This document shows, piece after piece, positions 4,854 through 27,006 of a DNA stretch of 29,460 nucleotides. Made by a program: the position numbers and the translations under genes. How positions within the stretch are numbered: position 1 is the stretch's first letter; each line of letters starts with the position of its first letter. The DNA is from a virus: positions 1 to 29,460 of IMG/VR virus record IMGVR_UViG_3300050821_006849; one strand, 5' to 3'. The notes under the pieces were generated by a model. It ran no database searches and was not told the origin of the DNA. It saw only the letters and a list, made by a program, of their open reading frames with translations.

Positions 4854-5558
4854 ATGAAAGTGACAAAATATCTTGCCGCAGCCGCGGCTGTTTGCATTGC
4901 GGGTGGGCTTGCTTGGGGCGGTGGCCTTTGGCAGACCATGCCTATTATCGGAGGCGCTGCTTATTGCTCTGGCAGCAATATCGTAGGCCCGGCCCAGCAA
5001 ACCATTACCGGGCAGAGCGGTACGCCTGCCGGAGCTAATGCCACTACCGGCAATGTGATTTGCACGGTGACAGAGCCTGCTGGTCCGCCGGCGTTGGTCG
5101 GGACCGAGGTCGTTCCGGTTGATATCAACACGCCTGGTACGGCTCAGCCGAACGGCGGCGCTCAGACTGCGGTATTGCCGGTGACTGCTCTCGGGCAGGG
5201 CTATGGTGCAATGCAAGTGTTTACTACCACAGGCACAACGGCGTCGGTTGTCGTGGCCAATGGCATTAACAGTTTCATTTATGCTGGCGGTGCTAACAAT
5301 GCAGCCACAATCACATCTTTGTCGCTGCCGCCCAATCCTATGCAGAATCAGGATTTTTGCATTTCCAACGCATCAACGGGAACCAGTATTCTAACTCTAA
5401 CTGCGGTTGCCGTTGGTACTAGCGGCCAATCGATCGTTGGTGTGACGCCTACATCGGTGCCTGTTGCGACCGCGGTCGGTACCGCGGGCACTGTTACGTT
5501 GTCCCGCATTTGCTGGCAGTATCAAGTATCCAACACCAGCTGGTATCGAATTCAGTAA
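4854..5558 (+). CDS. Exported phage protein of unknown function
   Basis: A 234-residue protein with a clear AAGGAG site 8 bases before the ATG. Residues 1-22 look like a signal peptide or N-terminal anchor (MKVTKYLAAAAAVCIAGG). The rest is rich in Thr, Val, Gly and Ala with strand-like periodicity, includes TGQSGTPAGANATTGN and ends SWYRIQ, so it is probably a beta-sandwich or beta-helix. I recall similar proteins in Bradyrhizobium-like prophages near packaging genes. It could be a virion surface protein or an exported host-modifying protein; the signal peptide favours export. No enzymatic motif is seen. Confidence 0.7.
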   Translation: MKVTKYLAAAAAVCIAGGLAWGGGLWQTMPIIGGAAYCSGSNIVGPAQQTITGQSGTPAGANATTGNVICTVTEPAGPPALVGTEVVPVDINTPGTAQPNGGAQTAVLPVTALGQGYGAMQVFTTTGTTASVVVANGINSFIYAGGANNAATITSLSLPPNPMQNQDFCISNASTGTSILTLTAVAVGTSGQSIVGVTPTSVPVATAVGTAGTVTLSRICWQYQVSNTSWYRIQ

Positions 5559-5571
5559 GTGGGGGTTCATA

Positions 5572-6066
5572 ATGGGATCAAGTGCCAGCTGTTACAGCTA
5601 TAGGGACTTCAAAACGATTGTTGAAGCCCAGTCTTTTAAAGGGGACACGTTCTATTGGGATAGCGGAAATCAGGCAGGCACATACAAATTTAACGTGTAT
5701 GCTATGGATTATGCGAGGAATCTATCTGCGACGTGGGGTGATACCGGTTCAACAGACCGGACTCCTGCCACATTTAGCACGGATTTTCCCAATGCCGTTG
5801 CACTTTTAGATAGTGCATTTCAGGCAGCGCCTGCTAGTTATAGGGACTTTAAAACCCTTTTTTCTGTGCAGGCATTTAAAGGAGATATATTTTACTGGGA
5901 CAGTGGAAACCAAGGCGGAACATATTCTTTCTATTTGTATGCTTTTGACTACTTAAGAGGCCTGTCTCTGACATGGACTTCTTCCGGAGCGGTGGACCAA
6001 ACGCCTGCAACGTTTGGCACCGACTTTCCTAATGCCATCCAATTGCTGGATGGGCCTGATTTCTAA
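5572..6066 (+). CDS. Protein of two tandem 80-residue repeats, unknown function
   Basis: A 164-residue protein starting at ATG 5572 with GGGGG about 8 bases upstream. It consists almost wholly of two copies of one unit: residues 9-88 and 89-164, both beginning SYRDFKT and sharing FYWDSGNQ, then TPATF-x-TDFPNA. There is no signal peptide although both neighbours are exported, and no catalytic motif. The aromatic-rich conserved core suggests a ligand-binding or structural repeat. I do not recognise the family. It sits in the accessory cluster before the terminase large subunit. Confidence 0.7.
   Translation: MGSSASCYSYRDFKTIVEAQSFKGDTFYWDSGNQAGTYKFNVYAMDYARNLSATWGDTGSTDRTPATFSTDFPNAVALLDSAFQAAPASYRDFKTLFSVQAFKGDIFYWDSGNQGGTYSFYLYAFDYLRGLSLTWTSSGAVDQTPATFGTDFPNAIQLLDGPDF
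5596..6063 (+). repeat. Two-copy tandem repeat, about 240 bp per unit (coding)
   Basis: Unit 1 begins at 5596 and unit 2 at 5836, a 240-base spacing; the second unit is slightly shorter. At the start of the units the DNA differs only at synonymous positions (AGCTATAGGGACTTC and AGTTATAGGGACTTT), whereas the middle has diverged, so this is an older duplication under selection. Confidence 0.8.
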
Positions 6067-6084: not shown

Positions 6085-6570
6085 ATGCCCCCTCTTGCCC
6101 GTCACTGGCTCTTGGCTCTAGCGCTGCTGCCTGGGTTAGGCCTCTCTCAGGCGGCAGCGCAGAGCACTACAGTTCCCCATACCTGCACTCAGGCTATTTC
6201 GCTTACCCAAGGGGGCGTCGGTACCAGCGGTCTTATTGGCCCAGCGGCGACGATTCCATCCTCGATGCCAACCGGCGGCCCGGCGGCTACGAACCTCACG
6301 TCGGGAAACTCGATTCTGGTCTGCGGCTATATCATCAATATGGCAGCTGCCGGCACAGCTGGGCTTGAGTATGGCACCAAGACTACAAATCCGTGCGATA
6401 CGGGGACTGTGCCGCTGACTCCCACCTGGTCGATGGGAACTACAAGCTTTATGACAGATGGCGGCTCTTTCTTCCGCGGGCTGTCTGTACCTCCTGGCAA
6501 TACGCTTTGCCTTGTGAGCGCGACCTCAGCCGCTTCCATCGTCGTTTATTACGACAACCTACCTCCATAG
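6085..6570 (+). CDS. Exported phage protein of unknown function
   Basis: A 161-residue protein. An AGGAG site lies about 12 bases before ATG 6085. Residues 1-25 form a convincing signal peptide (HWLLALALLPGLGLS, then QAAAQ). The mature part is Gly/Thr/Ser-rich with four cysteines (TCTQ, LVCGY, NPCDTG, TLCLV), which could form disulfides outside the cytoplasm, and it ends IVVYYDNLPP. The composition resembles the exported protein at 4854, though they do not align obviously. Function is unknown. Confidence 0.65.
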   Translation: MPPLARHWLLALALLPGLGLSQAAAQSTTVPHTCTQAISLTQGGVGTSGLIGPAATIPSSMPTGGPAATNLTSGNSILVCGYIINMAAAGTAGLEYGTKTTNPCDTGTVPLTPTWSMGTTSFMTDGGSFFRGLSVPPGNTLCLVSATSAASIVVYYDNLPP

Positions 6571-13477: not shown

Positions 13478-13684
13478 AAGCTAAGCCGTAGCGGAAATCG
13501 GCTCCGCCGCGACCTGGGCGTCATCAGGGATCGGATGTAATCGCGCCTCCTCCAGCGCCGCGACATGAGCGTTATCATGGTTCTCCCGCCCTTGTCTGAC
13601 TAGGGACCAGACGGCCAGCGTCGAAAGACGCTCCAGAGTTACGCGCCCGTAGAGGTGGCGCACCGGTAAGTGGAGCCATACCCT
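13478..13684 (+). other. 207-bp non-coding gap between scaffold and coat genes
   Basis: This is the largest gene-free stretch in the window, in a block where genes otherwise overlap. It holds several inverted repeats: GCGGA/TCCGC (13491-13507), GTCTG/CAGAC (about 13595-13613), and AGCGTC-GAAA-GACGCT (13617-13632) with a GNRA loop. There is no U-tract after any of them, so they are not plain terminators. An 8-base direct repeat GCCGCGAC occurs at 13506 and 13557. A leader that boosts coat translation, an RNA processing site or a small RNA is possible; no promoter is clear. Confidence 0.4.
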
Positions 13685-14944
13685 ATGGCGAACTCGATTA
13701 TCACGCCGAGCATGGTGACTCGGTACTCTATCAAGCTTTTTCTTAATACCAACTATTTCATCCAAAACGTAAGCCGTCAGTTCGAATCCCAATTCGGCAT
13801 CGAAGGCGCCCGTATCGGCGCTCAGCTCCGTATCCGCCTGCCGAATGACTACACCGTGACGGATGGCCCTGGCATTGCCATTCAGGACACGCTCGAGCAG
13901 CAATTCCTGCTTACGGTCGCCACCCAGCGACATGTGGACGTGGCATTCACGTCGGCGGAAACCACCCTGGATGTTGACGATTATATGGAGCGCATTGTGC
14001 TCCCGCGCGTCAATGTTCTTGCTGGCAATGTGGCGCTGCAGGTTCTGACCATAGTTGGCACGACCGTCCGCAATGCGGTGGCCAACGTGGACGCGAACAA
14101 CAACATTCTGCCTGTAACGGATTCTCCGTTCGCTTTGGCCAGGGCAATCCTGGAGGAGAATTCCTCGCCGCAGTTTGGCGAGATGGGTATGCGCAAGGTT
14201 GCCTTGCAGCCTCGCTCGGATGCCCGCGTCCAGCTCGCGCTTCGCGGTCTGCTCAATCCGGTCGATACCATCAGTCGGCAGTTCAATATCGGCATGATGT
14301 ACGAAGGGCTGCAATTCCGCTGGTTCGAGGACCAGTCGGTTCCCTCGCATACGACCGGTACGGCGACCACCGCGACCGTCAGCGGCGCCAACCAGACCGG
14401 TAATTCGCTGACGATCAGCTCTCTCTCCGGCACGCTGAATGCCGGGGATGTGATCACGATCGCCGGTGTGAATGCGGTGAACCGGGTTACCAAGGCCAAT
14501 CTAGGGACGCTTGCGCAGTTCGTCATTACGGCGAATGCCTCTAGCGGCGCCACGTCGCTGTCGATCTATCCAGCGATCATCCCGCCCGCAAATCAGACCC
14601 CATACGCGGGCCTTCCCTACACTCCACAGCAATATCAAACCGTGACTGCCTCTCCTGGCGGCACCGCGACTATTACGCCGTTTGCCAACGCAAGCGTGAC
14701 CTATCGCGAGAACCTGGCCTATTCGCCGGATGCCATCACGCTGGTGATTGCCCCGCTTTGGATTCCGCCCAACGAGAAGGGCGTCATTGCGGCAGCTCGG
14801 CATAGCTTCGACGATTGCTCGATGCGGTCTTTGGTTTGCTACGAGCCTTCAACCGATCAGCCTATCGATCGCTTGGATATCCTCTTTGGTGCGGGTGTGC
14901 CGCGTCCTGAGTGGATTGTTCAGGTCTGCGATTCAACTCCGTAA
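13685..14944 (+). CDS. P22-type major coat protein
   Basis: A 419-residue protein, close to P22 gp5 (430). The start is ATG 13685 (MANSIITPSMVTR), with GGAG about 9 bases upstream; a GTG at 13670 would add five residues. The core shows the HK97-like coat features of this family, and residues about 225-305 contain the signature NAGDVITIAGVNAVNRVTK followed by ASSGATSLSIYP. This is the P22-coat insertion region. It ends with LDILFGAGVPRPEW. About 400 copies would be expected to build the T=7 head. Both sequence and position (after scaffold) support it. Confidence 0.93.
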   Translation: MANSIITPSMVTRYSIKLFLNTNYFIQNVSRQFESQFGIEGARIGAQLRIRLPNDYTVTDGPGIAIQDTLEQQFLLTVATQRHVDVAFTSAETTLDVDDYMERIVLPRVNVLAGNVALQVLTIVGTTVRNAVANVDANNNILPVTDSPFALARAILEENSSPQFGEMGMRKVALQPRSDARVQLALRGLLNPVDTISRQFNIGMMYEGLQFRWFEDQSVPSHTTGTATTATVSGANQTGNSLTISSLSGTLNAGDVITIAGVNAVNRVTKANLGTLAQFVITANASSGATSLSIYPAIIPPANQTPYAGLPYTPQQYQTVTASPGGTATITPFANASVTYRENLAYSPDAITLVIAPLWIPPNEKGVIAAARHSFDDCSMRSLVCYEPSTDQPIDRLDILFGAGVPRPEWIVQVCDSTP

Positions 14945-14956
14945 CGGAGGTCACCA

Positions 14957-15274
14957 ATGGCCTTTGATCATGAAAACCACTACCTCGATGAGAAGGGGTT
15001 TGCCCGTCATAAGGAGACAGGCCACCTGATCGGCATTGAGGCTGCGCCACCCAAAAAGCATCCCGACGAGGGTGGAGAATATCCGAAATGGGTGGTTGCT
15101 CACACAGGACATATCCAGCGCGGACTTAGGGGTGGCATATCCACGCCTGAGTTTGGGGAGCACCACGCTGCCCGCGATGGCACCGTGAGCGTCCTCGTTC
15201 GCGACGAGGAAGATGAGTTGCGAGCTATCAGCGATCCAAAGGCTTCCAAGTCTGATGAGCAATCCAGTATTTGA
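14957..15274 (+). CDS. Small phage protein of unknown function after coat
   Basis: A 105-residue hydrophilic protein with a strong GGAGGT site 7-8 bases before ATG 14957. It is rich in His, Glu, Asp and Lys (HENHYLDEKGFARHKETGHL, then HPDEGGEYPKW) with no hydrophobic core that I can see, so it may be partly disordered or metal-binding. It could decorate the head, as often seen for the gene right after coat, but nothing in the sequence shows this. It overlaps the next gene by 20 bases. Confidence 0.7.
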   Translation: MAFDHENHYLDEKGFARHKETGHLIGIEAAPPKKHPDEGGEYPKWVVAHTGHIQRGLRGGISTPEFGEHHAARDGTVSVLVRDEEDELRAISDPKASKSDEQSSI

Positions 15275-15761
15275 GACTGCGCTCGCGACGATCCTGCAGG
15301 CTTTAGAGGATGTCGAGGCCGAGGTTGGGCGCCTTAGAGGACTCGAAGTTCGAGCCCAAGGCACCCAACAGCGCCTTGATGCCATGCAAGTGCAGGAACG
15401 GGAGATGAAGGCGACCTTAAGTGGTTTGGCCGCCTCAGTTACTGCTGCACAGCGGAAGGTTGAGACGGCTATTCAGCATGCAAGCGATATTGTGAACGAG
15501 GGAGAGAAGACCAAAGCTCAGATTATCGCCGATGCGCATAAGGATGCTGGTCTGATAACAGCCGATGGCCAGAGGGGTGCGCTTGCACTTCTCGAGCAAG
15601 CAAAGAATGACGCGGCACAACATACCGAAAAGGTGGCCAAGGCGAAGCAGGATCTAACAGCCATTGCTGCCCAGCAGAACGAAATTCTGCGGCACATTGA
15701 ATCTGCTCAGAATGAATTCAAGCGGATAAAGCAATCTGCGGCAGCGTTTGCTGGGGAATGA
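15255..15761 (+). CDS. Long coiled-coil protein
   Basis: A 168-residue protein, almost all helix with heptads (LEDVEAEVGRLRGLEVRAQG, QRKVETAIQHASDIVNEGEK and later TEKVAKAKQDLTAIAAQQNE). The start at ATG 15255 lies inside the end of the previous gene. Proteins of this type in head modules are often fibres, assembly chaperones or tail-shaft components. No further function can be assigned. Confidence 0.7.
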   Translation: MSNPVFETALATILQALEDVEAEVGRLRGLEVRAQGTQQRLDAMQVQEREMKATLSGLAASVTAAQRKVETAIQHASDIVNEGEKTKAQIIADAHKDAGLITADGQRGALALLEQAKNDAAQHTEKVAKAKQDLTAIAAQQNEILRHIESAQNEFKRIKQSAAAFAGE

Positions 15762-15765
15762 CATT

Positions 15766-16164
15766 GTGTCGGCCCTGAACTTCGATTTTGGTCCAACTCC
15801 TACTTTCCCGGCTGCGGCGCCTGTTACCAGCGCTGTTTTCACCGGCACGACACTACTTGTACCGCAGTTCGCGGTCATCAACACGACTTCATCGGGCACC
15901 GTGATTGTGGGCGTTCCTGGCCTGATGATCAGGGTGTTAGCTATGGACTTGGTCTCGAGCGCTGCCGTGACCATAGAATGGCAGACCCAAACCGGGTCTG
16001 CAATTATTAGCGGCCCACAAGCGTTTGCGCAAAATGGCGGCATAGTCAGACCGTTCAACCAGGCTGGCTGGTTCCAAACACTGCTTGGAGACGCGTTACT
16101 CATCAACCTGTCGGTCGGCGCAACGGTCGGCGGGAACATAACCTTCGTAACCACTCCAAGCTGA
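15766..16164 (+). CDS. Beta-rich structural protein, unknown
   Basis: A 132-residue protein. The GTG at 15766 is chosen because GGGGA lies about 8-10 bases upstream; a TTG at 15748 would extend it into the previous gene. The sequence alternates hydrophobic and Thr/Ser/Gly residues (GTTLLVPQFAVINTTSSGTV, then LLINLSVGATVGGNITF), predicting a small beta-sandwich such as a head-decoration or surface protein. There is no signal peptide. The family is not recognised. Confidence 0.65.
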   Translation: MSALNFDFGPTPTFPAAAPVTSAVFTGTTLLVPQFAVINTTSSGTVIVGVPGLMIRVLAMDLVSSAAVTIEWQTQTGSAIISGPQAFAQNGGIVRPFNQAGWFQTLLGDALLINLSVGATVGGNITFVTTPS

Positions 16165-16175
16165 GGAGAGTAGAA

Positions 16176-16676
16176 ATGGCCTCATATACGATCAACAACA
16201 CCAATGCTGGGACGCAGCAGAATATCCCGACCACCATTAACGGTACGAATTCGGCTATTCTGCAGGCCGCAGCAACTACCGGTGCGACCACTCTGCGTCG
16301 CATTTGGTGGACTGAATTTGAATGGGGCGCCAACAACGTGCCGAATGCTGTGGACTGCCCAATCATCTTGGATATGTCCAAGTTTACGGCTGCGGCGACG
16401 GCTACTTCTCTAACGCCGGTCCCTACCGACACCGGCGGTGGTGACGCTGTTGCTCTTGGCACCTACACCGCAAATGGCACAACGGCCGGCACGTATACGG
16501 CGAGTTCTTCCGTATTTACGAAATCGATCAATCAGCGTGCTTCTGACAAGCAGTGGTGGCGAGACAAGGCGACTTGTCCGATTATCCCGGCTGTGAATGC
16601 CAACGGACTTGGTATTAGGGTATATTCTACCAACTACGCCTCCACTGTGCTCGTGCAGGCAAGCGTGGAAGAATAA
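16176..16676 (+). CDS. Phage structural protein, unknown
   Basis: A 166-residue protein with GAGGAGAG about 6 bases before ATG 16176. It starts MASYTINNTNAGTQQNIP and is Thr/Ala/Asn-rich with a conserved-looking aromatic patch (LRRIWWTEFEWGANN) and KQWWRDKATCP near the end. Predicted mostly beta. I recall similar proteins downstream of coat in alphaproteobacterial prophages, where a head-decoration or minor capsid role would fit, but this is inference. Confidence 0.7.
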   Translation: MASYTINNTNAGTQQNIPTTINGTNSAILQAAATTGATTLRRIWWTEFEWGANNVPNAVDCPIILDMSKFTAAATATSLTPVPTDTGGGDAVALGTYTANGTTAGTYTASSSVFTKSINQRASDKQWWRDKATCPIIPAVNANGLGIRVYSTNYASTVLVQASVEE

Positions 16677-16680
16677 TTCC

Positions 16681-16965
16681 ATGTGGTCAAATTACGCGGC
16701 GCGGCGGGGACAGGGGTTTGGTTACAACCTTGTGACCAACCCCTATGGTCCTCAGATTGAATCTGACACCTTCCAGTGTGCGCACTGCAACACTACTGTG
16801 TTTATTGATCCAAAAGAGCCGTCGCCTTGGTGCATGTGCTGTGACAGACAGTGGTGTGGGCAGAAGAAGTGCCGCGAGTGCGCGCCCTTCATGAGGAAGG
16901 TTGAGGCAGCAGAAGCCGCGTGCCGCGCTCGTATGTTGATTTGGAAAGCTGCTGACAATGTCTAG
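16681..16965 (+). CDS. Zn-ribbon-like phage protein
   Basis: A 94-residue protein with eight cysteines in a zinc-binding arrangement: CAHC (33, 36), WCMCC (51, 53, 54), C at 59, and CRECAPF (64, 67), followed by a helix (MRKVEAAEAACRARM). The pattern C-x2-C, C-x-C-C and C-x2-C-x-PF-x-x-K-x-E belongs to a recurring small family of phages infecting alphaproteobacteria. Zinc binding is likely; role unknown. It overlaps the next gene by 8 bases. Confidence 0.75.
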   Translation: MWSNYAARRGQGFGYNLVTNPYGPQIESDTFQCAHCNTTVFIDPKEPSPWCMCCDRQWCGQKKCRECAPFMRKVEAAEAACRARMLIWKAADNV

Positions 16966-17173
16966 GAGCGAACGGGTATTAGATATTGCAGCGTCGCTTC
17001 ATGAATTGGTGGAGCGTCATCTTCAGGATGGCAATCCTGAGCATGTCGTGGCTGCTTTGGTATCGGAACTAAACTATGTGATTGAGAACTTGTGGCCCAG
17101 GCATGAATGCAATGGAGTCATAGAGCATTATGCTTCCCAAATGAAATTGCGGAACGCCAAATGTCAGAATTAA
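16958..17173 (+). CDS. Small helical protein of unknown function
   Basis: A 71-residue protein with ATG 16958 inside the end of the previous gene. It is helical (LDIAASLHELVERHLQDGNP, then VAALVSELNYVIENLW) with two cysteines and no distinguishing motif. It overlaps the following gene by 13 bases. It could bind a partner of the neighbouring zinc proteins, but this is speculation from position. Confidence 0.6.
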   Translation: MSRSERVLDIAASLHELVERHLQDGNPEHVVAALVSELNYVIENLWPRHECNGVIEHYASQMKLRNAKCQN

Positions 17174-17484
17174 ATCCGTGCAGGAAGTGTGGTGGCCCGG
17201 CTGTCGAGCACATCCGCGGCGAGTTTCACGCTAAATCGCGCGACGATGTCGAGGAAAATCGTCATCCTGGCGCGCTCTTGGTGTCGATGGATAAGAGCAT
17301 TGAAGACGATTTCAGACTAGCGTGCTCTAAGGTCAAGGAAAGTGATTTTCTCCCCAAGACCGTTGGGGGATGGGGCAGCGGGGTTTTTGAATGCGAGAAC
17401 TTCCTTCCTTGGTGCCAACCGACGTTGAAGGAAGTCAGGAAGCAATACGAGTTGTGGAACACACTCAATCCGAAGGTGTCCTAG
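17161..17484 (+). CDS. Lar-like (restriction alleviation) zinc-finger protein, tentative
   Basis: A 107-residue protein starting at ATG 17161. The opening SELNPCRKCGGPA matches the Lar family opening (LKPCPFCGG), and the end RKQYELWNTLNP matches the conserved WN-containing tail of Lar proteins. The second cysteine pair (FECEN and PWCQP) is spaced differently and the middle is longer and charged. Lar proteins modulate type I restriction to protect phage DNA. It lies outside the obvious head genes, which would fit an anti-restriction role. The resemblance is by short motifs only. Confidence 0.45.
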   Translation: MSELNPCRKCGGPAVEHIRGEFHAKSRDDVEENRHPGALLVSMDKSIEDDFRLACSKVKESDFLPKTVGGWGSGVFECENFLPWCQPTLKEVRKQYELWNTLNPKVS

Positions 17485-17892
17485 ATGGCTACGGCAAATT
17501 CATTCGATATGCAGTTGATCGCTGCAGACTCGAATTTGAAAACGCGTGTTCAGGCCTTGCTCAATGCATTCCTGGTAGGAACGGTGTTTCCCGAGTCTTG
17601 TTCTGACACTGGCAGCGTTACTCCGCAGCGGCATCTAGCGCGCAAGGCCTATGCATCGCAGGTGCTGAACAACTACTCTGCATACGCTACCATGTTTGAA
17701 TGGGCCGCCGCATCCAATCAGACGCTTGCCAATGACGTTGTCACGACTAACGGCGGCAACTTTACGTCCAGCACCACGCAGGCAACGGTGGCCGCTGCTG
17801 TCACGACGGCGACGCCGACGACCACCGGTGCGACCGATACTGACATCAACAATGCATTGGCGGCATCGTTTAATCTGCTTGCGAATGCCTGA
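17485..17892 (+). CDS. Phage protein of unknown function, probably structural
   Basis: A 135-residue protein whose ATG directly follows the previous stop. The N-terminal half is helical (LIAADSNLKTRVQALLNAFL, RKAYASQVLNNYSAYATMFE); the C-terminal half is Thr/Ala-rich (VVTTNGGNFTSSTTQATVAA), ending NALAASFNLLANA. It recalls small proteins found near tail or head-fibre genes. The stop shares a base with the large GH-like gene (TGATG), so it is coupled to it. Confidence 0.7.
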   Translation: MATANSFDMQLIAADSNLKTRVQALLNAFLVGTVFPESCSDTGSVTPQRHLARKAYASQVLNNYSAYATMFEWAAASNQTLANDVVTTNGGNFTSSTTQATVAAAVTTATPTTTGATDTDINNALAASFNLLANA

Positions 17893-20150
17893 TGCCGTCG
17901 CAAGTATTCTGGAGGGGGTTCCCTCCATTGCCGCCTCCGGCGTTCAGCGGGAATGTTGGTCAGATCCTTATCAATCCTAATTTCATGCTGACGAGCGGGG
18001 ATTACGCATTCCTCGATCTGATGAAAATGGGGCTGATGCCATGGGGCATAGTAGGGGGGGGTGGGATTGAGACTATTTCCCCGGCTAACGTGGATAGCAA
18101 TGGGTATCCAACATCGTTGGCAGCTGGGGCCGTAAGCACTCAGATTTTCACGCCAGGTGCTGGGAGAACCGGCCAATCAGCGCAGCAATACGTCATAAGA
18201 TGGGACGGGACAGGCACTGTAACGTGCGATGGGACGCTCGTAAGCGGCAGCCTTACGGGAACTGGTCTCAATAATCGCGCTGTCATGGACACGACGGGAT
18301 TTGCCACTGTTTCTATCGGTATTTCGGCGTTGCCCGTGACGAACATGCACTTCTACCACATTGACGATGAGACAGCTTATCTAGCCGGGCAGATAGCCGG
18401 TGTGGAATTTACGAAGAGAATCAAGCAAGCTCAGGCCCCCGTGTTTCGCATCCTAAATTGGCTGGGGCCGGCGTTCGGCGGGACCAATTTATGCAACATG
18501 ACAAATTGGGCATCGCGCAAGCCGCTGACGTATGCGAGCTATTGCGGGGACGAGCTTAGGTCATCGCTCTTTGCGGGAACCACAACGAATTCCGGGAATG
18601 ATTATTCGATCACATTTGGAAGTGGTGCTCCGACCGATAAGCAAACGATTCACCTTTATTTCAACGCAGCGCAATCAGATACTTCGACTTGGAACGGCAG
18701 TGGTAGCAATCTGACATTCTCGTCAGGGTCGCCTGGCACGGTCAATTGGGGAGCCGCTCTGCCTGCCAGTATTGTCGCGGGCGCTCCAGTGATGTTTGGT
18801 GGCTTTGCTGGCTTTTCTGCTCCGCCGGAAATCGTTCAGTACAGCCCTTACTACGTCAAGACCGTAACAGGGGCACAAACGTTCACGATTTCTCTTACCA
18901 AGGGCGGAACTGCTATCAATTTCTCCACCTCTGGTGGAAGTGGAGTGGTTGGCGTTAGGGCCTGCAGCTTGAATTTAAATGGCTCCGGGGCTGTTCCGAT
19001 TTGGGATCAGCGCCTGCAGATCATGTGGGGGCCTGGCGCAAATTTGATAGCGCTCAATCCAAATCAGAACTCCGGCACGACAAGTTCACTGGGCACCATG
19101 GTTTACGATGCTGGGATAAATGTCTGGACTCTATGGGGTGGTGATTCATCTAACGTGGCAGGGATTGGCAACGGTGTTCCTCCGGAGGCGTTTATTGCGC
19201 TTTGTGCAGAAATCGGCTGCCACCCATGGTTTGAGTCTCCGCAATTAGCGTGTGATCCAATGACGGATTGGCACACGCAGCTTGCGACGTACTGCAAGAA
19301 CAATGCTCCATCGTGGATGGTTCCCAGGTTTGAAATACTCAACGAGCCATGGAATTTTGGAAATTCTGTATCAGATTATGCCCAAGCTAAAAGCTTCGTA
19401 AATTGGGGAGTTGAAGACCTTGTCAATTTCGTCGGGAAGGTAGCTTCAACGGCTGGTCAAGATATCAGCGCCGTCTACGGCGGTACGCCAGGGACAGGCA
19501 TCGCTTATCATCTGATGATCAACTCCCAAACCGGTAATTCAAATCCTACTGACAACGATATGCTGAACTCCAGCCTTTACGTTGGACAAGCAGCCGCTCC
19601 TCAATCCGGGTACATAAAAGCGCCAGCAAAAAACTATCTGACTCACGTTGCCATCAATCACTACATGAATTCTGCTGCCAGCATAACAGCAGCCAACACC
19701 AGTTGGAACGGTGGGGCGAATCCATCTGCCGTCAACGCGTACCTGGACGATCCAACACTTGGTTTCCCGGCATCTGCCGTCAATAATCCTGCTGGCGTGC
19801 TTGGAATGGCGGCTGTTTACACCGCCACGTTTTCTTGGTGCCAGGGGTTCACAAATCTTGCCGGTAACAAGATACGAATGTGCGGATACGAAGGCGGCGC
19901 AGAGGTTGACCTAGGGAACGCTACCAACTCAACCATATTCCCGTTCTGGAATGCCTGCATGAACACAGGCACGAATATGCAGCTTTACTGCACCGAGAAT
20001 TGGCAGAACTTCATCAAGGCCGGTGGTGAGCATCCTGCATTGTTCCAGCTTTCAGGAACGCCGCCCCGCAGTGATGTGTGGTCAGTTCTTCTTGATGTCT
20101 ATCAATCGCCAGATCCGCCGGAATGGTTAGCAGTCGTTAGCTTCTCTTGA
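17892..20150 (+). CDS. Large glycoside-hydrolase-like (clan GH-A-type) phage protein
   Basis: A 752-residue protein in a TGATG overlap with the previous gene. There is no signal peptide. A long N-terminal region (to about 360), rich in Gly/Ser/Thr, probably holds beta domains and inserts. The C-terminal part looks like a TIM barrel: FRILNWLG, then FEILNEPWNFG with Glu 485 in the NEP acid/base motif, AINHYMN, and MCGYEGG with Glu 667 as a possible nucleophile. This pattern matches retaining clan GH-A enzymes that cut beta-linked polysaccharides. It could be a virion depolymerase for host capsule or exopolysaccharide. The fold is inferred from motifs; the family is uncertain. Confidence 0.6.
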   Translation: MPSQVFWRGFPPLPPPAFSGNVGQILINPNFMLTSGDYAFLDLMKMGLMPWGIVGGGGIETISPANVDSNGYPTSLAAGAVSTQIFTPGAGRTGQSAQQYVIRWDGTGTVTCDGTLVSGSLTGTGLNNRAVMDTTGFATVSIGISALPVTNMHFYHIDDETAYLAGQIAGVEFTKRIKQAQAPVFRILNWLGPAFGGTNLCNMTNWASRKPLTYASYCGDELRSSLFAGTTTNSGNDYSITFGSGAPTDKQTIHLYFNAAQSDTSTWNGSGSNLTFSSGSPGTVNWGAALPASIVAGAPVMFGGFAGFSAPPEIVQYSPYYVKTVTGAQTFTISLTKGGTAINFSTSGGSGVVGVRACSLNLNGSGAVPIWDQRLQIMWGPGANLIALNPNQNSGTTSSLGTMVYDAGINVWTLWGGDSSNVAGIGNGVPPEAFIALCAEIGCHPWFESPQLACDPMTDWHTQLATYCKNNAPSWMVPRFEILNEPWNFGNSVSDYAQAKSFVNWGVEDLVNFVGKVASTAGQDISAVYGGTPGTGIAYHLMINSQTGNSNPTDNDMLNSSLYVGQAAAPQSGYIKAPAKNYLTHVAINHYMNSAASITAANTSWNGGANPSAVNAYLDDPTLGFPASAVNNPAGVLGMAAVYTATFSWCQGFTNLAGNKIRMCGYEGGAEVDLGNATNSTIFPFWNACMNTGTNMQLYCTENWQNFIKAGGEHPALFQLSGTPPRSDVWSVLLDVYQSPDPPEWLAVVSFS

Positions 20151-20165
20151 CAACGGGTGTGTGGC

Positions 20166-22385
20166 ATGCCGCGAATATCTATGGTTGCCTTGTGGTTGTG
20201 CGTCTCTGCGGTGCCCGCATCAGCGCAAGTTGCGCTCGATTCATTTGGCTTTCAGGATAATGGTGGCCTAGACAGGGCAAGCTTTAATGCGACGCCGCTC
20301 ACGGTTGGGACCGGAACGCAGCGCGTTCTAGAGTGCGCCGCATTGATCGGCGGCGCCGGCCGCAACGTTACCAACGTCGCCATGAAATGGGGCGGGACGC
20401 CAATGGCTCCGCTCACCTCGGTCGCCAATACCGGGGGTGTAAAGGCATGGGCTGGATTGTTTGGTCTTGTCAATCCGGCGAGCGGCAAACTTACCCTTTC
20501 GACGACATGGAGCGGCGCGAATGGGATCACCGTATCCTGCTGGTCGCTTACCGGCGCCAATCAAGGTGGCGGCTCGGCTACGTTTCAGAATGTCGCCGCC
20601 ATGAAGGGGCAGACGGCTACTGCTTCGGTGACGCTCCCGAGCGCGACTGGGAACTTTGTCATCGGTGCGATTACGACGGACGCCAATGCGCCGGTCAACT
20701 CGATCAGCGGTCTTCAGGACTTCATCGACAACAACTCGACCGGGGCGGCCGGCAGCCATACGCCGGGCTCATCCTCCGTTACAACCACGGCGGCGCTCGG
20801 CAGCGGCTATGGATACACATGGGCAGATGTCTCCTCCGACGTTGCTCCGGGAACGCCTATTCCGCCGGCAGCGCCGGTTGTCGGTGGCCTTTCCCCGAGT
20901 TCAGGCCCCATCAGTGGGGCGACTGCTGTCACCATCGCAGGCAGCGGCTTTACCGGTGCCACGGCGGTAACGTTCGGTTCGGTCTTGGCGCAATTCACCG
21001 TTTCCAGCGATACGGCAATCTCGACCACATCTCCTGCGGAGGCGGCCGGTACGGTAGACGTGACGGTGACGACGGCGAACGGCACCAGCCAGGTAGTGAC
21101 GGCCGACAAGTTCAGTTATACCGCGCCACAGCAGCCAGCCGTGAGCGGGGTCAGTCCTAGCAATGGCACGACATCTGGCGGCACCTCGGTCACAGTAAGC
21201 GGTTCTGGGTTTACTGGAGCTACCGCAGTCAATTTCGGTATGGTCCCGGCCGCCAGCTTTACGGTCAGCAGTGACACCAGCATTTCTGCGGTAGCGCCGG
21301 CTGAGAGCGCGGCAACGGTCGATGTGACCGTAACTACAGCCAATGGCACGAGCACGGCCGGTTCGCCAGACCAATATACCTTCGTGACGCCGAATGGTTT
21401 GATTCCGCCGATAGCGACGCGCCCGTCTTATAACACCGGCAACGGCTTTTTCGTCGTGGGCCGCGGGATCTACGATGCAAACGGTAATTTGTTCACGCCG
21501 ATTGGCGCTAATCGCCAGCATTACGACGCGAGCGAAGATAGCCGCTTTATGGCCAAGCCTAATGTGGAAAGGCTGGTGCCGTTCTTCAATCAGCCGTGGG
21601 CGACCAATCAGGCCTTTCTGAATGACGATGTCACTAACAAGGTGGTGCCGATTCCGGGTGTCTTTTACACGAACTACAATACCGGTACGCAGACCACTGG
21701 AAGCACAAAACTGGCCGATCTCAACACGGCGGTTGGTTTCTGGACCTCGCAGGCGGCAGATTGGACGACCTACAACAACATTGCGATGTTCAATATTGCC
21801 AATGAGTGGGGACCGTGCAGCGACGATCCGAATGCCTCGGATTACGTCAACGGCTATCTGTCTGCCATCCCGACAATGCGCTCTGCGGGCTATACCGCAC
21901 CTCTCGTGGTTGATGCCGGCTGCTCTGGGCAGGGCTTCGACGAGCTCATGTCCTATGCCCAGCAGATCGAAGACGCCGATCCTCTACATAGCATCGTATT
22001 CTCGATCCACAATTACGGCGAGTTCTATGTCACCAATCCGATCTGCAACGGGTGTGGTTGGCAGTGGGGTCCAGCGGTGGCTCAATTGGCCAGTCTAAGC
22101 GTGCCGGTAATCTTTGGAGAGTTCGGTTGCGGAACACCGTGCGGGGACAGCAACTCAACCCCGGTCACGCCAGACATCCTCATGCAGACTCTGCAGACCT
22201 ATCAAATGGGATGGTTGGCCTGGAGCTGGGATGATGGAGGTTGTCAGTTCAATCTGCTTGGCCCATGCCCTAACAATGGGACGTGGCTTTACTCCAATCT
22301 AACGCCATACGGGACGGATGTGATCACCTCTCCCGGCTTCGGCATGCAAGCAGTCTCCAGGCCGGCAACGGTGTTTCCACAATGA
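20166..22385 (+). CDS. Exported GH5-like glycoside hydrolase with two IPT/TIG domains
   Basis: A 739-residue protein starting at ATG 20166; GTG 20157 would add three residues. Residues 1-21 form a signal peptide (VALWLCVSAVPASAQ). About 22-230 is a beta domain shared with downstream genes. Two IPT/TIG immunoglobulin-like domains follow (about 237-319 and 325-408, each with GSGFTGATAV-type turns). About 415-739 is a TIM-barrel hydrolase: FNIANEWGP (acid/base Glu 547), FSIHNYGEFY, VIFGEFGC (nucleophile Glu 652) and WLAWSWDDGG, the latter typical of GH5 mannanase/cellulase-type enzymes. Retaining hydrolysis of a beta-glycan is expected. The Sec signal implies secretion by the infected or lysogenic host rather than simple virion assembly. 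Confidence 0.8.
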   Translation: MPRISMVALWLCVSAVPASAQVALDSFGFQDNGGLDRASFNATPLTVGTGTQRVLECAALIGGAGRNVTNVAMKWGGTPMAPLTSVANTGGVKAWAGLFGLVNPASGKLTLSTTWSGANGITVSCWSLTGANQGGGSATFQNVAAMKGQTATASVTLPSATGNFVIGAITTDANAPVNSISGLQDFIDNNSTGAAGSHTPGSSSVTTTAALGSGYGYTWADVSSDVAPGTPIPPAAPVVGGLSPSSGPISGATAVTIAGSGFTGATAVTFGSVLAQFTVSSDTAISTTSPAEAAGTVDVTVTTANGTSQVVTADKFSYTAPQQPAVSGVSPSNGTTSGGTSVTVSGSGFTGATAVNFGMVPAASFTVSSDTSISAVAPAESAATVDVTVTTANGTSTAGSPDQYTFVTPNGLIPPIATRPSYNTGNGFFVVGRGIYDANGNLFTPIGANRQHYDASEDSRFMAKPNVERLVPFFNQPWATNQAFLNDDVTNKVVPIPGVFYTNYNTGTQTTGSTKLADLNTAVGFWTSQAADWTTYNNIAMFNIANEWGPCSDDPNASDYVNGYLSAIPTMRSAGYTAPLVVDAGCSGQGFDELMSYAQQIEDADPLHSIVFSIHNYGEFYVTNPICNGCGWQWGPAVAQLASLSVPVIFGEFGCGTPCGDSNSTPVTPDILMQTLQTYQMGWLAWSWDDGGCQFNLLGPCPNNGTWLYSNLTPYGTDVITSPGFGMQAVSRPATVFPQ

Positions 22386-23017
22386 GCTATACATTTTCTT
22401 CTACAACAACGGATACCAGTGGGACAACGGTTTCGACCGTCTCCCTTGATATAGGGCCGACTGCAAGTCCGACCGTTATTGTAGCCGTTGCTTGTCCAGG
22501 GGTATCCGGGACGCCTACCTTGACGGTAGGCGGCGCCGCGATGACCTTGCAGGTATCGGATGGAAGTGATGAGTGCTTCGTCTTCTCTGGTGTTGCTTCT
22601 GGGTCTGGTGTGCAATCCGTTGTCTTTACGGCGACCGGAAGCGCTTTCCAACAGCGCAACTATTGTCTTTGGTACACGACAGATACCATAACTGTCTTTG
22701 GCACTGGTTCCACTACCGCTGGCGGACAGGCGAGCTATACGGTCAGTGTTCCTGCTGGAGGTTATCTATTTGCGATCGCAGCCAGCACGCAGACGACACC
22801 GACGTTAAATGGCTCCACGCAGACTCCCACCGCCAACCACTCCATCGCTACCGGCGGCACGAATTTTATAGCCGCTGACTGGGTGATTGCGTCCGGAAAC
22901 GCATCGTTCACTGTTGCCACCAGTCCGGCCGGTAATGAGGTGTCTTCCGCTGTGTCGTTCACAGTGGCCGCTCCGCCTGCTTTCGTAACAATAGGAATTG
23001 GTGGAAGTAACTGGTGA
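22382..23017 (+). CDS. Beta-sandwich protein sharing a module with its neighbours
   Basis: A 211-residue protein, ATG in an ATGA overlap. It is nearly all Thr/Ser/Val/Gly strand, with TPTLTVGGAAMTLQV early and SAVSFTVAAPPAFVTIGIGG at the end. The arrangement of a GG-x-x-MT-type turn, a hydrophobic strand set and late SAVSFTV resembles the N-terminal modules of the flanking genes at 20166 and 23023. There is no signal peptide. It is probably a surface or tail-associated protein; a carbohydrate-binding role is possible given the enzyme neighbours but unproven. Confidence 0.65.
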   Translation: MSYTFSSTTTDTSGTTVSTVSLDIGPTASPTVIVAVACPGVSGTPTLTVGGAAMTLQVSDGSDECFVFSGVASGSGVQSVVFTATGSAFQQRNYCLWYTTDTITVFGTGSTTAGGQASYTVSVPAGGYLFAIAASTQTTPTLNGSTQTPTANHSIATGGTNFIAADWVIASGNASFTVATSPAGNEVSSAVSFTVAAPPAFVTIGIGGSNW

Positions 23018-23022
23018 AGTAA

Positions 23023-25389
23023 ATGGCCGTCACCTTAGACGCTGTCGGCACGCATAAGGTTATTACTAGCACTGGCACTGGAGCCAACACCTTCACCGGG
23101 CTGACTATCAGCGCCGGCCTTACGAACTCCGTAGCCGTTTTTTCCATTGTCTACGGTAACGGGCAGCCAACATTTTCAAGTGTGACGTGGAACGGCGTCG
23201 CATGCACGCAGATAGGTAACGCCTCATTATCAGGTTCTGGTGGTATAGCTTGGTTTGGCATAGTCAACCCTGCTTCCGGCAACCAGACATTTTCATTTAC
23301 GCCTAGCGTTAGTGTTGAAGCTTATGTTGAAGGATGTTCGTTTCAAAACGTAAATCAGACCGGCGGCACCACGACATTTGCACATTTTGTGTCGAATGTT
23401 GTAAGCACGCCAGTAACCACTAAGACTCTGGCCGTCACGACCGTCTCAGGCAATTTTACCTGTATGGCGGTGCTTCCCGGCACACCGGCGGCTACTGTAT
23501 TTACGGCACCTGTTGGTTCGCAGATTTATCGGGACGCAACCGACCCAGCGGGGAATGGCACTAACGCTGCGGCGGCGCAAGCCGCGAGCACTACTACATC
23601 GACTTCTTATACGGCGGCAAACAGTTCATCAGATACGATGCTGATGGCTGGGTTTGACCTGCTTGCGGCGGCTGGCGGTGCTGTTGTCACGATTGGGTGG
23701 AGCCGTCCCAGCGATACAGATAGGCTGCCATGGCCTATGCGGCCAGATAAGAGCGCGGTTGAATCGTTACAATTTTTCACACCGTCTCCTAATCCTGTTC
23801 CAACGACCTGGCTTCCGACTACAGGGGAGGAGGACCGACCGCCAGCTTTAAAGCGTCCACCGGATGAGCCGCGGCTGAATACGTATTTCGTTCGGTCGCC
23901 CAATCCGGTGCCGACGACTTGGTTGCCGACCACGGGGGAAGAGGATCGTCCTCCGGCGCAGAAACGCCCACCGGATGAACCGCGGCTAAACACATACTTC
24001 ATCCGGTCACCCAACCCAGTTCCGACGACTTGGCTGCCAACGACCGGTGAGGAAGATAGGCCTCCGGCACAGAAGCGGCCCCCCGATGAGCCCAGGCTCA
24101 ATACGTATTTCGTTCGCTCTCCGAATCCAGTCCCGACGACCTGGCTTCCTCAATGGGATGGGTGGGAAAAGCCAAAACGGGTTGCCGCCGATCCGAGCGC
24201 AACAGTTCAGGTTCTTCGCGCCATCACCTCTGTGGTGCCGATCTCCGGCATTGCATGGAACATTCCAAGCGAGGACAAAGAACGACCGGCGCCATTTAAG
24301 CCGACCCCAGGCAACAATTTCTTTGCGGTTCAAATACCGGCAGCGGTAGCCACATGGCTGCCGACAACGGGCCAAGAGGACAGGCCGCCAAATCCTAACC
24401 GGCAAAGGACGGATGAGTCGTTCAACTGGTTTGTGCGTTCTCCTCATCCGGTACCCACGACGTGGTTGCCACAGTGGGACGGATGGGAAAGGCCCAAGCC
24501 TGCTATTCCGGATGCCAGTGGAGAGGCATTCGTTTTCAGGCCGGTAACCGCGACTGTTCCGATATCTGGGATCGCTTGGAACACGCTAAGCGAAGATAAG
24601 GAACGGCCAACGCCGTACCGGCCTACACCTGGAAATAGCTTCTTTAGTGTTCAGGTGCCAGTTGCGACCGCCCCAGTATCCGGGATGGCCTGGAACACTC
24701 TGAGCGAAGACAAGGAGAGATTGCCGCCGTTTCATCCAGCTCCCGGCAACAATTTCTTCAGCGTTCAGATCCCGACGTCAACTGTTCCTGTCTCTGGGAT
24801 TGCCTGGTACACGCCTGGTGAGGATAAGGAGAGATGGGAGCCTTATCTCCCGACGCCGGGCAACAGCTTCTTCAGTGTTCAGGTGCCGACCAGCACCGTA
24901 CCGGTGTCTGGTATCGCTTGGTATACTCCAAGCGAAGACAAGGAAAGGTGGAAGCCCTACCTCCCGACTCCTGGCAATAATTTCTTCAGTCTTCAGGTGC
25001 CGATCTCTAGCACGATTGCTGGAATTGGCTGGTTAATCCCTTCGGATAATGGACCGCCGCCTCCAAAAGATGATCCTTCTGTCATACAGACGCTTCCACC
25101 ATTCATCGCACCGCCGCTACAGTCATTCTATGCTGCGGCCAACGCCGATGACTTCAATCCTTTGCCCAGGCCAAGAGAATTCGAAGGGGCAACTACTCAG
25201 ACGTTTCGATCATTTGCGGCTCCGGTTGGGATTGCCGGTATAGCGTGGTGGCAACCGGTGCAGGTCTTCCTCGAGCCGCTGCCGAGCTATCGTGACTATC
25301 ATCTGGCATGGGATCCACAATTTATCGTGCAGATACCGCCACCAACTCAGAACCTGTTTTTACGGCCTTTGATGGGCTTTGGACTCTAA
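23023..25389 (+). CDS. 788-residue repeat protein: beta domain plus proline-rich tandem repeats
   Basis: ATG 23023 follows a GGTGAAG site. Residues about 1-220 are a beta domain (FSSVTWNGVACTQIG, WFGIVNPASGNQTFSFTP) like that of the upstream hydrolase (MKWGGTPM, GLVNPASGKLTL). From about 225 onward there is a Pro/Trp/Glu/Arg-rich array of two related repeat types. Type A has 37 residues (PNPVPTTWLPTTGEEDRPP, then LNTYFVR). Type B has 38 residues (VPVSGIAWYTP-x-EDKER, then PTPGNNFFSVQ). The regular Trp and Pro spacing suggests an extended fibrous rod or a protein-binding array. There is no known catalytic site. It is possibly a head or tail fibre; the family is not recognised. Confidence 0.7.
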   Translation: MAVTLDAVGTHKVITSTGTGANTFTGLTISAGLTNSVAVFSIVYGNGQPTFSSVTWNGVACTQIGNASLSGSGGIAWFGIVNPASGNQTFSFTPSVSVEAYVEGCSFQNVNQTGGTTTFAHFVSNVVSTPVTTKTLAVTTVSGNFTCMAVLPGTPAATVFTAPVGSQIYRDATDPAGNGTNAAAAQAASTTTSTSYTAANSSSDTMLMAGFDLLAAAGGAVVTIGWSRPSDTDRLPWPMRPDKSAVESLQFFTPSPNPVPTTWLPTTGEEDRPPALKRPPDEPRLNTYFVRSPNPVPTTWLPTTGEEDRPPAQKRPPDEPRLNTYFIRSPNPVPTTWLPTTGEEDRPPAQKRPPDEPRLNTYFVRSPNPVPTTWLPQWDGWEKPKRVAADPSATVQVLRAITSVVPISGIAWNIPSEDKERPAPFKPTPGNNFFAVQIPAAVATWLPTTGQEDRPPNPNRQRTDESFNWFVRSPHPVPTTWLPQWDGWERPKPAIPDASGEAFVFRPVTATVPISGIAWNTLSEDKERPTPYRPTPGNSFFSVQVPVATAPVSGMAWNTLSEDKERLPPFHPAPGNNFFSVQIPTSTVPVSGIAWYTPGEDKERWEPYLPTPGNSFFSVQVPTSTVPVSGIAWYTPSEDKERWKPYLPTPGNNFFSLQVPISSTIAGIGWLIPSDNGPPPPKDDPSVIQTLPPFIAPPLQSFYAAANADDFNPLPRPREFEGATTQTFRSFAAPVGIAGIAWWQPVQVFLEPLPSYRDYHLAWDPQFIVQIPPPTQNLFLRPLMGFGL
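23785..24117 (+). repeat. Three tandem 111-bp repeats (type A, coding)
   Basis: Units begin at 23785, 23896 and 24007, each 37 codons, with a truncated fourth copy (SPNPVPTTWLPQWDGW) from 24118. Amino-acid identity between units is very high (changes such as A-L-K to A-Q-K, V-R to I-R), while codons differ at many third positions, so purifying selection acts on the protein sequence. A partial copy of the A motif (VATWLPTTGQEDRPP) recurs near 24350. Confidence 0.85.
24556..25011 (+). repeat. Four tandem 114-bp repeats (type B, coding)
   Basis: Units begin at 24556, 24670, 24784 and 24898, each 38 codons, with an earlier isolated copy from 24235 and a degenerate copy after 25011. Shared core: SGxAW, then S/G-E-D-K-E-R, then P-x-PGN(N/S)FFS(V/L)Q. 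The protein is better conserved than the DNA, pointing to functional repeats rather than recent slippage. Confidence 0.85.
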
Positions 25390-25399
25390 GGAGAAGAAA

Positions 25400-26212
25400 A
25401 TGGAAGAGCATATCTCTCAAGGAAATTTCGGTTATGACATTGCCACTGGACAGGCAACCGGAGTTGCGCAAGGACGTAGACAATACCTGGATCCCGAGAT
25501 TGCGAATGAGGGTACCAAGGTCATCATGTCGGATGGCTCGACCATCACATACAATACGCCGCCTCCGCAGGCCGCCATTTTTGACTATTCTAAAGTTAAG
25601 GGTCTGGCCAAATACTTCAATCGGACTGATTTTCATTTCTTCCCGACGTGGGTATATCATCCGGATGGCAGGGAGGCGATCGCCAAAGATGCTCAGGAAT
25701 GCGGGGATAAGTATGGCATCTTTCTCGTAAAGCGATCCGCTGAAGAGAAGGCCAAGTTCGGCGGCGGCGATTATCGTTGGGAGTTTTCAGACACGACTGA
25801 ATGGCGTCCTGCGCGCTTTGGGCCAAAGAAGTTTGATCCGGAAAATCCAGATACCGGCAAGATTTATGTACCTCGCGCGCCCGATCCTAAAATTGCCAAT
25901 CACGAGCTGATTGAGCGGGTGGTTGCTGCCATGCAGGGCGGCCAGAATGACTTCCTGCTGAAGCTGCTATCCGCGATGCAGAACACGGCCAGCAATGCGG
26001 CGCCGGTGCCTGAAGAGGTCAAAGAACCAGAAGCGTCTGCCGTAGAACTAGGTTCTCAAAAGTCAGCCAAAGAGCACTGGCAGGCGGTTGCTGAAGAGGC
26101 TGGTATTGAAATCGACAAGAGATGGGGAATTGATCGGATCAAGACTGAGATTGCGGCGCAAACCCGTAATGCGACGCTGATGCCTGAAGAACCTACGGAA
26201 GAGGCGGAGTAA
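25400..26212 (+). CDS. Phage protein of unknown function, probably virion or head-completion
   Basis: A 270-residue protein with a strong AAGGAG site 6-7 bases before ATG 25400. The N-terminal half contains EGTKVIMSDGSTITYNTPP and FHFFPTWVYHPDGREAIAKD. The C-terminal half is helical and acidic, with PKIANHELIERVVAAMQGGQ and a terminal HWQAVAEEAGIEIDKRWGID motif resembling short HeH/LEM-type helix-hairpin elements seen in phage head proteins. It lies directly before gp4-like and gp10-like genes, suggesting a head-completion or virion role. No family is assigned. Confidence 0.7.
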   Translation: MEEHISQGNFGYDIATGQATGVAQGRRQYLDPEIANEGTKVIMSDGSTITYNTPPPQAAIFDYSKVKGLAKYFNRTDFHFFPTWVYHPDGREAIAKDAQECGDKYGIFLVKRSAEEKAKFGGGDYRWEFSDTTEWRPARFGPKKFDPENPDTGKIYVPRAPDPKIANHELIERVVAAMQGGQNDFLLKLLSAMQNTASNAAPVPEEVKEPEASAVELGSQKSAKEHWQAVAEEAGIEIDKRWGIDRIKTEIAAQTRNATLMPEEPTEEAE

Positions 26213-26217
26213 CGCTC

Positions 26218-27006
26218 GTGTCGATGACTGCCGAGCCCGTCCTAGGCGGCCCGTCTGAACCGGTACTGGCTGTCGATAATGTCGGCCAGCTGCTTCAGAA
26301 TGCCTTGGAGGACGGCGGCATCATCGGCTTGGATGAGGCCATCGAGCAGGCCTATATGACCAAGGCTCTGCGCCACGCCAACTGGCTGCTGGCGCAATGG
26401 GCTCGCAAGCGTTGGCTTGTCTACTCGATATCGGAATATGCGTTCGTGGCCACTGGGGCCAACTTCTACAACGTAGGCCTTGGCCAGATCGTCAACATAA
26501 ACCCGCGTCCGGACCGCCTTGAATATGCGTATATGAGGTTCCTGAACTCATCGCAGCCTGTACAGTTCCCGGTCGATATCCCGCTCGACATCATCCCCTC
26601 GAAAGAGGACTACTCGCGGATTACGGTGAAGACCATCGGCACCTTACCGTGGCGCGTCTTCTACGATCCGCAATGGCCCATAGGCCAGATTTATCCGTGG
26701 CCGGTTCCTCAACAGTCTCAATACGAGCTGCACTTCGGATTCAAAACGGTCCTACCGCGGTTTGCCAGCCTCACTCAGAAGATAAATTTTCCGCCTGAAT
26801 ATGAGGCGGCGATGAATTGGTGCCTTGCCAGACGTTTTAGAACGGCTTGGACATTGCCGCCAGATCCGGAAATCATCGCCCTGGCGCGCGAGGGCATGAA
26901 TGTCATTCGCCTGGCCAACCAGGCAGTCTCAACGCTCGTAATGCCGAGCTTTCTGCGGAGCCGCAATCGTGGATACGATTATCGTGGAGACAGCGACAGT
27001 TACTAA
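26218..27006 (+). CDS. P22 gp4-like head-completion / tail accessory protein
   Basis: A 262-residue protein. GTG 26218 is preferred over ATG 26224 because GGAG lies 8 bases upstream of the GTG. The pattern ALRHANWLLAQWARKRWLV, a helical N-terminus, then YEYAYMRFLNSS-like strands, IPSKEDYSRITVKTIGTLPW, GQIYPWPVPQQSQYELHFGF and finally INFPPEYEAAMNWCLARRF matches the gp4-type packaged-DNA stabilization family, in a longer form than P22 gp4 (166). Such proteins plug the portal after DNA packaging and connect it to gp10. Position right before the gp10-like gene fits well. Confidence 0.78.
   Translation: MSMTAEPVLGGPSEPVLAVDNVGQLLQNALEDGGIIGLDEAIEQAYMTKALRHANWLLAQWARKRWLVYSISEYAFVATGANFYNVGLGQIVNINPRPDRLEYAYMRFLNSSQPVQFPVDIPLDIIPSKEDYSRITVKTIGTLPWRVFYDPQWPIGQIYPWPVPQQSQYELHFGFKTVLPRFASLTQKINFPPEYEAAMNWCLARRFRTAWTLPPDPEIIALAREGMNVIRLANQAVSTLVMPSFLRSRNRGYDYRGDSDSY

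Follow-up and report, generated by a model that had tools for sequence, protein, structure and literature searches.

The window analysed here comprises one complete IMG/VR virus record (29,460 bases), and it derives from a P22-like phage, as indicated by matches to PF16510 (E 1.6e-127), PF11651 (E 1.9e-23) and phrog_578 (E 1.6e-71). The P22-like markers found in it are the portal (PF16510), the coat (PF11651) and Hc3, and portal, coat and neck genes of the P22 type are all present. The coat and neck genes are separated by a cassette of 10 kb, whose last gene encodes a protein made of an N-terminal beta domain followed by a tandem array of proline- and tryptophan-rich (W/P) units. The features of the region are the following:

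13670..14944, plus strand: P22-like coat protein (PF11651), the upstream boundary
15275..25389, plus strand: cassette of 10 kb lying between coat and neck genes, not present at 25 related loci
15748..16164, plus strand: gene of 138 aa
16597..16965, plus strand: Zn-ribbon-like (CAHC...C..C) gene
17485..17892, plus strand: gene of 135 aa
17892..20150, plus strand: cassette protein of 752 aa, no family match
20157..22385, plus strand: paralogue of the N-terminal domain (N-domain) of the array protein, followed by two TIG domains (PF01833) and a GH5 beta-mannanase (PF00150)
22382..23017, plus strand: beta-domain-like gene ending in VTIGIGGSNW, 5 nt before the array gene (the longest ORF starts at 22283), no database match
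23023..25389, plus strand: array gene of 788 aa, N-terminal beta domain plus W/P array (ORF; autocorrelation)
23023..23688, plus strand: predicted N-terminal jelly-roll-like domain, residues 1-222 (AlphaFold2, Foldseek and sequence HMM)
23689..25386, plus strand: W/P array, residues 223-788, about 15 units including a degenerate first and a degenerate last three
23806-23916, 23917-24027 and 24028-24138, plus strand: three A units of 37 aa each
24139..24252, plus strand: C unit, TWLPQWDGWEKPK..., 38 aa
24253..24351, plus strand: short B unit, 33 aa
24352..24459, plus strand: A unit variant, 36 aa
24460..24573, plus strand: second C unit, 38 aa
24574..25026, plus strand: four B units of 38, 38, 38 and 37 aa
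25027..25386, plus strand: degenerate C-terminal units
25379..27006, plus strand: two neck genes directly 3' of the array (phrog_6587 and phrog_12985), conserved in relatives

A preliminary description of this DNA had proposed a Pro/Trp array at 23700-25150, composed of two interleaved unit types of 37 (A) and 38 (B) residues with a common W...P-x-P...N-x-F-F core. The tandem array is real: it occupies the C-terminal ~565 residues of the ORF, and identities within it peak at lags of 38 (130) and 37 (126), far above the maximum of 66 found at any lag in 1000 shuffles. Its extent is larger than had been thought, due to the degenerate units at both ends. The unit lengths are 33-39 residues, mostly 37 or 38, with a terminal remnant of 48, and most copies of A (three at 37 aa and one at 36) and of B (three at 38 aa, one at 37 and one at 33) have exactly the length assigned to them. 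On the other hand, a third type, C (TWLPQWDGWE[KR]PK), had been missed, and the interleaving is confined to the middle of the array; over the whole array, a degenerate opener is followed by the order A A A C B A C B B B B and by three degenerate units. As for the common core, Trp is indeed invariant, and the sole residue to be so across 13 aligned units, whereas N-x-F-F is found in B units only and A units carry N-T-Y-F instead. The core of the window units is W-x-x-P...E-D/K-x-R-P. The array contains 18% P and 4% W. AlphaFold2 models it with low confidence (mean pLDDT about 25-50), with a short strand in several units. An ORF on the opposite strand (23607-24101), which mirrors the A units in reverse, was regarded as spurious.

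The first three A units are 95-97% identical as proteins and only about 75% identical as DNA, with pN values of 0.01-0.04 and pS values of 0.81-0.90. Among their 35-36 identical residues, 21-25 differ in codon, compared with the 22-23 expected under independent draws at the codon frequencies found in eight genes of the window. For comparison, orthologous coat genes whose proteins are 81% identical show a pS of only 0.71. This saturation of pS beyond that of coat orthologues indicates either that the copies are ancient and conserved at each residue, or that repetition at the DNA level is selected against. In any case, the W/P array is under strong amino-acid constraint, which bears out in stronger form the earlier claim of amino-acid conservation despite synonymous drift, and near-zero pN together with saturated pS supports its description as functional. 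Near-identical repeat peptides written in independent codons offer a clear natural example of a protein-level repeat maintained without DNA repeats.

The statement that the array matches no known phage fibre is correct as far as the repeats are concerned, as searches of Pfam, NCBIfam, PDB and phage records gave no match. Profile and sequence comparisons with established phage fibre repeat families in Pfam, PHROGs, NCBIfam and PDB likewise produced nothing significant, and the tandem A-type pattern was found neither in 2.9 million viral contigs nor in 257 Gb of genomes. A tblastn search against phages (50,697 GenBank phage records) and plasmids recovered no array match, under a low-complexity filter that may hide weak ones, and no paper on such repeats was found in the literature. 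By these searches, the repeat type of the window array is new. A weak PHROGs match of the array to phrog_24284, a family of 46 positions and unknown function, fell to E 0.011 with the unit consensus alone and was judged to be due to chance, and a search for this family gave nothing in the window or the controls. A match to 6mpx, which consisted of two 8-bit alignments only, was rejected.

The N-terminal ~222 residues are shown by modelling to be a jelly-roll-like domain of the kind found in phage structural proteins. AlphaFold2 predicts beta structure for residues 1-110 (pLDDT 67-93), and a Foldseek search against BFVD with the N-domain returned 33 matches at E <= 1e-3 (lowest E 1.7e-8), most of them from tailed phages, with ~210-230 alignment columns, and many annotated as mycobacteriophage 'minor tail protein'. 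Similarity to the minor tail protein jelly roll concerns the N-domain only: the proteins of Tweety, Hawkeye, Tonenili and Stubby have a similar fold (TM-score up to 0.68 on the target), but their sequence identity is low (roughly 15-22% among those named), no W/P array was seen in them and their gene context differs from that of the window. In PDB, no structure matched the whole model at E <= 1e-3, the jelly rolls of C1q/Cbln1 being weak matches only. Within the cassette, residues 27-204 of the array protein match residues 48-228 of the protein encoded two genes upstream (20157-22385; E 1e-6), which carries a GH5 beta-mannanase behind the same N-domain, with beta-mannanase matches in PDB (E 3e-26); unlike GH5 beta-mannanases, the array protein lacks a catalytic domain. 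By eye, the N-terminus of this mannanase resembles a Sec signal, and its gene lies inside the late structural region. Also by eye, the LNEPWN motif of the neighbouring protein (17892-20150) recalls clan GH-A hydrolases, with no family or PDB match.

Relatives of the phage were gathered by scanning with the neck gene that lies downstream of the array, which gave 29 loci, 25 of them with both coat and neck placed; the same scan of genomes revealed no related prophage. The gap between coat and neck is 10434 nt in the window versus 251-1910 nt (median 738) in the 25 relatives, and, among the 26 coat-neck intervals compared, the cassette is present in the window only. The gene that immediately follows the coat (14957-15274) is common to the relatives, with 23 homologues, whereas no homologue of the cassette genes between 15213 and 25389 was found at the relatives' loci. 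Even in the closest relative, L002, with a coat 96% identical, the array is absent from anywhere in the 59.8-kb record. The array gene thus sits in an exchangeable coat-neck cassette. Tailspike-like proteins with N-termini that resemble signal peptides by eye are encoded at L002:18408-20696 and at L003:11270-12283.

A scan with the N-domain led to a phage ORF (L035) in which the same domain is followed by a different W/P array. From the DW units of this protein and from motifs of that kind, a DWPxP pattern of three units 30-40 aa apart was drawn and run on viral contigs, and the family was afterwards borne out by the data: 69 loci matched, of which 66 have array ORFs (L039-L107), corresponding to 55-56 non-redundant arrays of environmental phages. 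Three loci (L054, L092 and L103) showed no array ORF by the criterion used, and L106, a simple repeat, was probably picked up by the pattern in error. The arrays of these uncultivated phages are, like that of the window, Pro/Trp-rich and tandem, with one Trp-led unit per 31-40 residues (lengths mostly 30-37). Observed codon differences are 0.99-1.11 times those expected in L047, L052 and L099, as in the window, and 0.4-0.5 times in L071 and L089, unlike the window. A DWPxP array modelled with AlphaFold2 gave no confident fold either (mean pLDDT 49). No match was found in Pfam for the arrays of L047, L089 and L055, nor among GenBank phages for those of L101 and L095 and for the L035 protein. 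The array proteins of L048, L051, L053, L087 and L097 end in a common LTAKQRSNIA..AA..RWK stretch, distinct from the array, and those of L071 and L089 alternate two unit types and carry a C-terminal block of short W.PVDDSQ-like repeats.

The window and the DWPxP loci also share their genes. With the N-domain HMM, homologues were detected in L097 and L048/L049, where they lie immediately 5' of the array gene and overlap it by 4 nt, more weakly in L068 and L076 (0-3 nt before the array gene), and in L035, where the domain is fused to the array. The Zn-ribbon gene has homologues in 16/55 non-redundant array loci, always upstream and on the same strand, a homologue of the 17485 gene lies directly before the array gene in L051 (L051:3190-3564; E 9.7e-7), and L067 has a homologue of the 15748 gene 5' of its array (E 1.9e-23). 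Downstream, a homologue of the neck gene 26218 directly follows the DWPxP array in L042/L074, L066 and L073; other arrays have a head-tail adaptor, TerL, portal or coat gene next to them. The window therefore has in common with the family the tandem Trp-led units of 31-40 aa with Pro of at least 9%, the N-domain and the upstream module genes, and differs from it in unit sequence, as the D-W-P-x-P core is unlike that of the window. A profile of 303 DWPxP units gave -71.0 bits with the window array (shuffles up to -28.6), compared with 29.3 bits for the L035 array (shuffles <= -2.0), and profile-profile comparison with HHalign found no alignment between window and DWPxP units, that is, no relation above shuffles. 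Membership of the window units in the DWPxP repeat family was thus supported by neither method and, because this comparison failed, a relation is claimed at the level of the module only. Judged by these profiles, the window units are a separate or very diverged repeat, which fills the same place in the module, either by extreme divergence or by replacement. By homology of its genes, the window cassette is a relative of a widespread and unnamed module of environmental phages. Nothing in Pfam, PHROGs, NCBIfam or, for those arrays that were compared with them, the 50,697 GenBank phage records matches this module, which is placed among head and neck genes and linked to a mannanase and to folds of adhesion proteins. 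The preliminary description had overlooked the N-terminal domain fused to the array, its paralogue on the mannanase, the cassette of 10 kb and the related module of other phages, and it is these that lend the array its meaning.

The reading favoured here, to which we give an even chance, is that the array protein serves a P22-like phage for display or adhesion at the virion surface, and is built on a linear W/P scaffold. It draws on the occurrence of the cassette in the window only among 26 intervals, on the fold of the N-domain and on the constraint, as well as on the sharing of the N-domain with a GH5 beta-mannanase and on the module genes found beside DWPxP arrays and head and neck genes. 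As the window units do not match the DWPxP HMM, function is carried over through gene context only. We infer that the protein would sit on the particle, where the array could form a long, extended and Pro-stiffened scaffold, whose regularly spaced Trp residues and short strands would make repeated contacts with the capsid or neck, or else with the envelope of the host and the polysaccharides of that envelope. Such an extended scaffold is a default reading, as AlphaFold2 gives no confident fold for either array type; low confidence on both fits an extended or an obligately multimeric chain without proving either. A fibrous or ligand-binding role of the array, as put forward earlier, is plausible. 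The jelly-roll head would bind glycans and hold the particle on polysaccharide-coated hosts, while the cassette mannanase would trim the coat, and the swapping of the cassette between phages could serve adaptation to surface sugars. If virion-borne, the system would help to explain how phages hold on to, and pass through, polysaccharide. On the other hand, the Sec-like N-terminus of the mannanase counts against this reading, since secretion fits it at least as well as incorporation into virions.

Like T4 Hoc, Dec of phage L and phi29 gp8.5, the array protein is accessory, dispensable within its clade and encoded near the coat gene; no sequence or fold match with these proteins was found. For all three, carbohydrate binding has been proposed, and head decoration or fibre proteins with carbohydrate-binding beta domains constitute the nearest functional precedent, which the array protein matches in position and multi-domain beta design (PMC7602432). 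From its genome position, the protein is a candidate for head decoration by capsid binding, and it would belong among the accessory phage surface proteins, with a new and constrained repeat type.

Among the alternatives, a tail or neck fibre, in which the array would be a trimeric shaft attached at the neck or tail and the N-domain a virion anchor or receptor tip, seems unlikely. The annotation of N-domain fold neighbours as minor tail proteins, the weak match of the L035 N-domain to the minor tail protein phrog_553 and the neck genes immediately after the array gene are in its favour, but phages of the clade without the array keep a beta-helix tailspike-like protein elsewhere (L002:18408-20696), the repeats resemble no known shaft repeat, and the DWPxP modules examined are mostly situated amid head genes or ahead of TerL.

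A further possibility stems from the genes that precede the DWPxP arrays, many of which, in spite of different N-terminal domains, share a C-terminal tail (for instance DVLQAQIML, DILYPQIML or NVLFAQSVM). This tail, [DN][IV]Lx[AGP]Q[IAVS][MLW][LMW], was observed on the beta-domain genes L097:4769-5458, L048:3508-4176, L053:3522-4307, L087:2091-2879, L095:2345-3061 and 11 more, that is, in 16/562 genes at DWPxP loci, all on the array strand and most of them 0-4 nt before the array, compared with 0/359 genes of array-less relatives and 0.07 expected from the internal motif rate; the enrichment is descriptive, as the regular expression was written after the tails had been seen. The tail suggests docking or anchoring and, as it is shared by different upstream genes, a scaffoldin-like model was proposed, in which the array would offer anchored docking sites to several cargoes, beta-domain proteins would dock through the tail ([DN][IV]Lx[AGP]QI[ML]L) and the cargo of the window would be fused. 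If true, such a scaffold with docked or fused cargo would be a phage analogue of the cellulosome scaffoldin. Both fused proteins, those of the window and L035, lack the tail, as the model would have it; nevertheless, capsid binding or oligomerisation would be an alternative role for the tail, and its conservation may partly reflect coupled-start sequence, so that the model is rather improbable. We consider equally doubtful the wider proposal of an exchangeable surface-display system, common among uncultivated phages of the environment, where a W/P scaffold of variable length and unit type would carry jelly-roll/LamG-like or enzymatic cargo, fused or tail-docked, and the window array would be a second, independently evolved scaffold repeat.

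A protein secreted or exposed on the cell surface by a prophage, for lysogenic conversion or polysaccharide degradation, rather than a virion component, would suit the Sec-like N-termini, judged by eye, of the mannanase and of the product of 6085-6570; it is nonetheless a poor prospect, as nothing resembling a signal is seen at the N-terminus of the array protein itself, its gene lies in the late structural region and its N-domain has structural-protein fold neighbours. Finally, a non-functional or decaying repeat expansion, which the degenerate terminal units and the relatives that do without the array might evoke, is most improbable, being already contradicted by the substitution pattern of the A units and by the open frame of 788 codons.

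With regard to a cultured example of the module, the N-domain, the Zn-ribbon gene, the W/P array and the C-terminal tail offer markers for finding one. Elsewhere in the window, the gene at 5464-6066 encodes a protein made of two ~80-aa copies (YRDFKT...QAFKGD.FYWDSGNQ.GTY...), with no family match.
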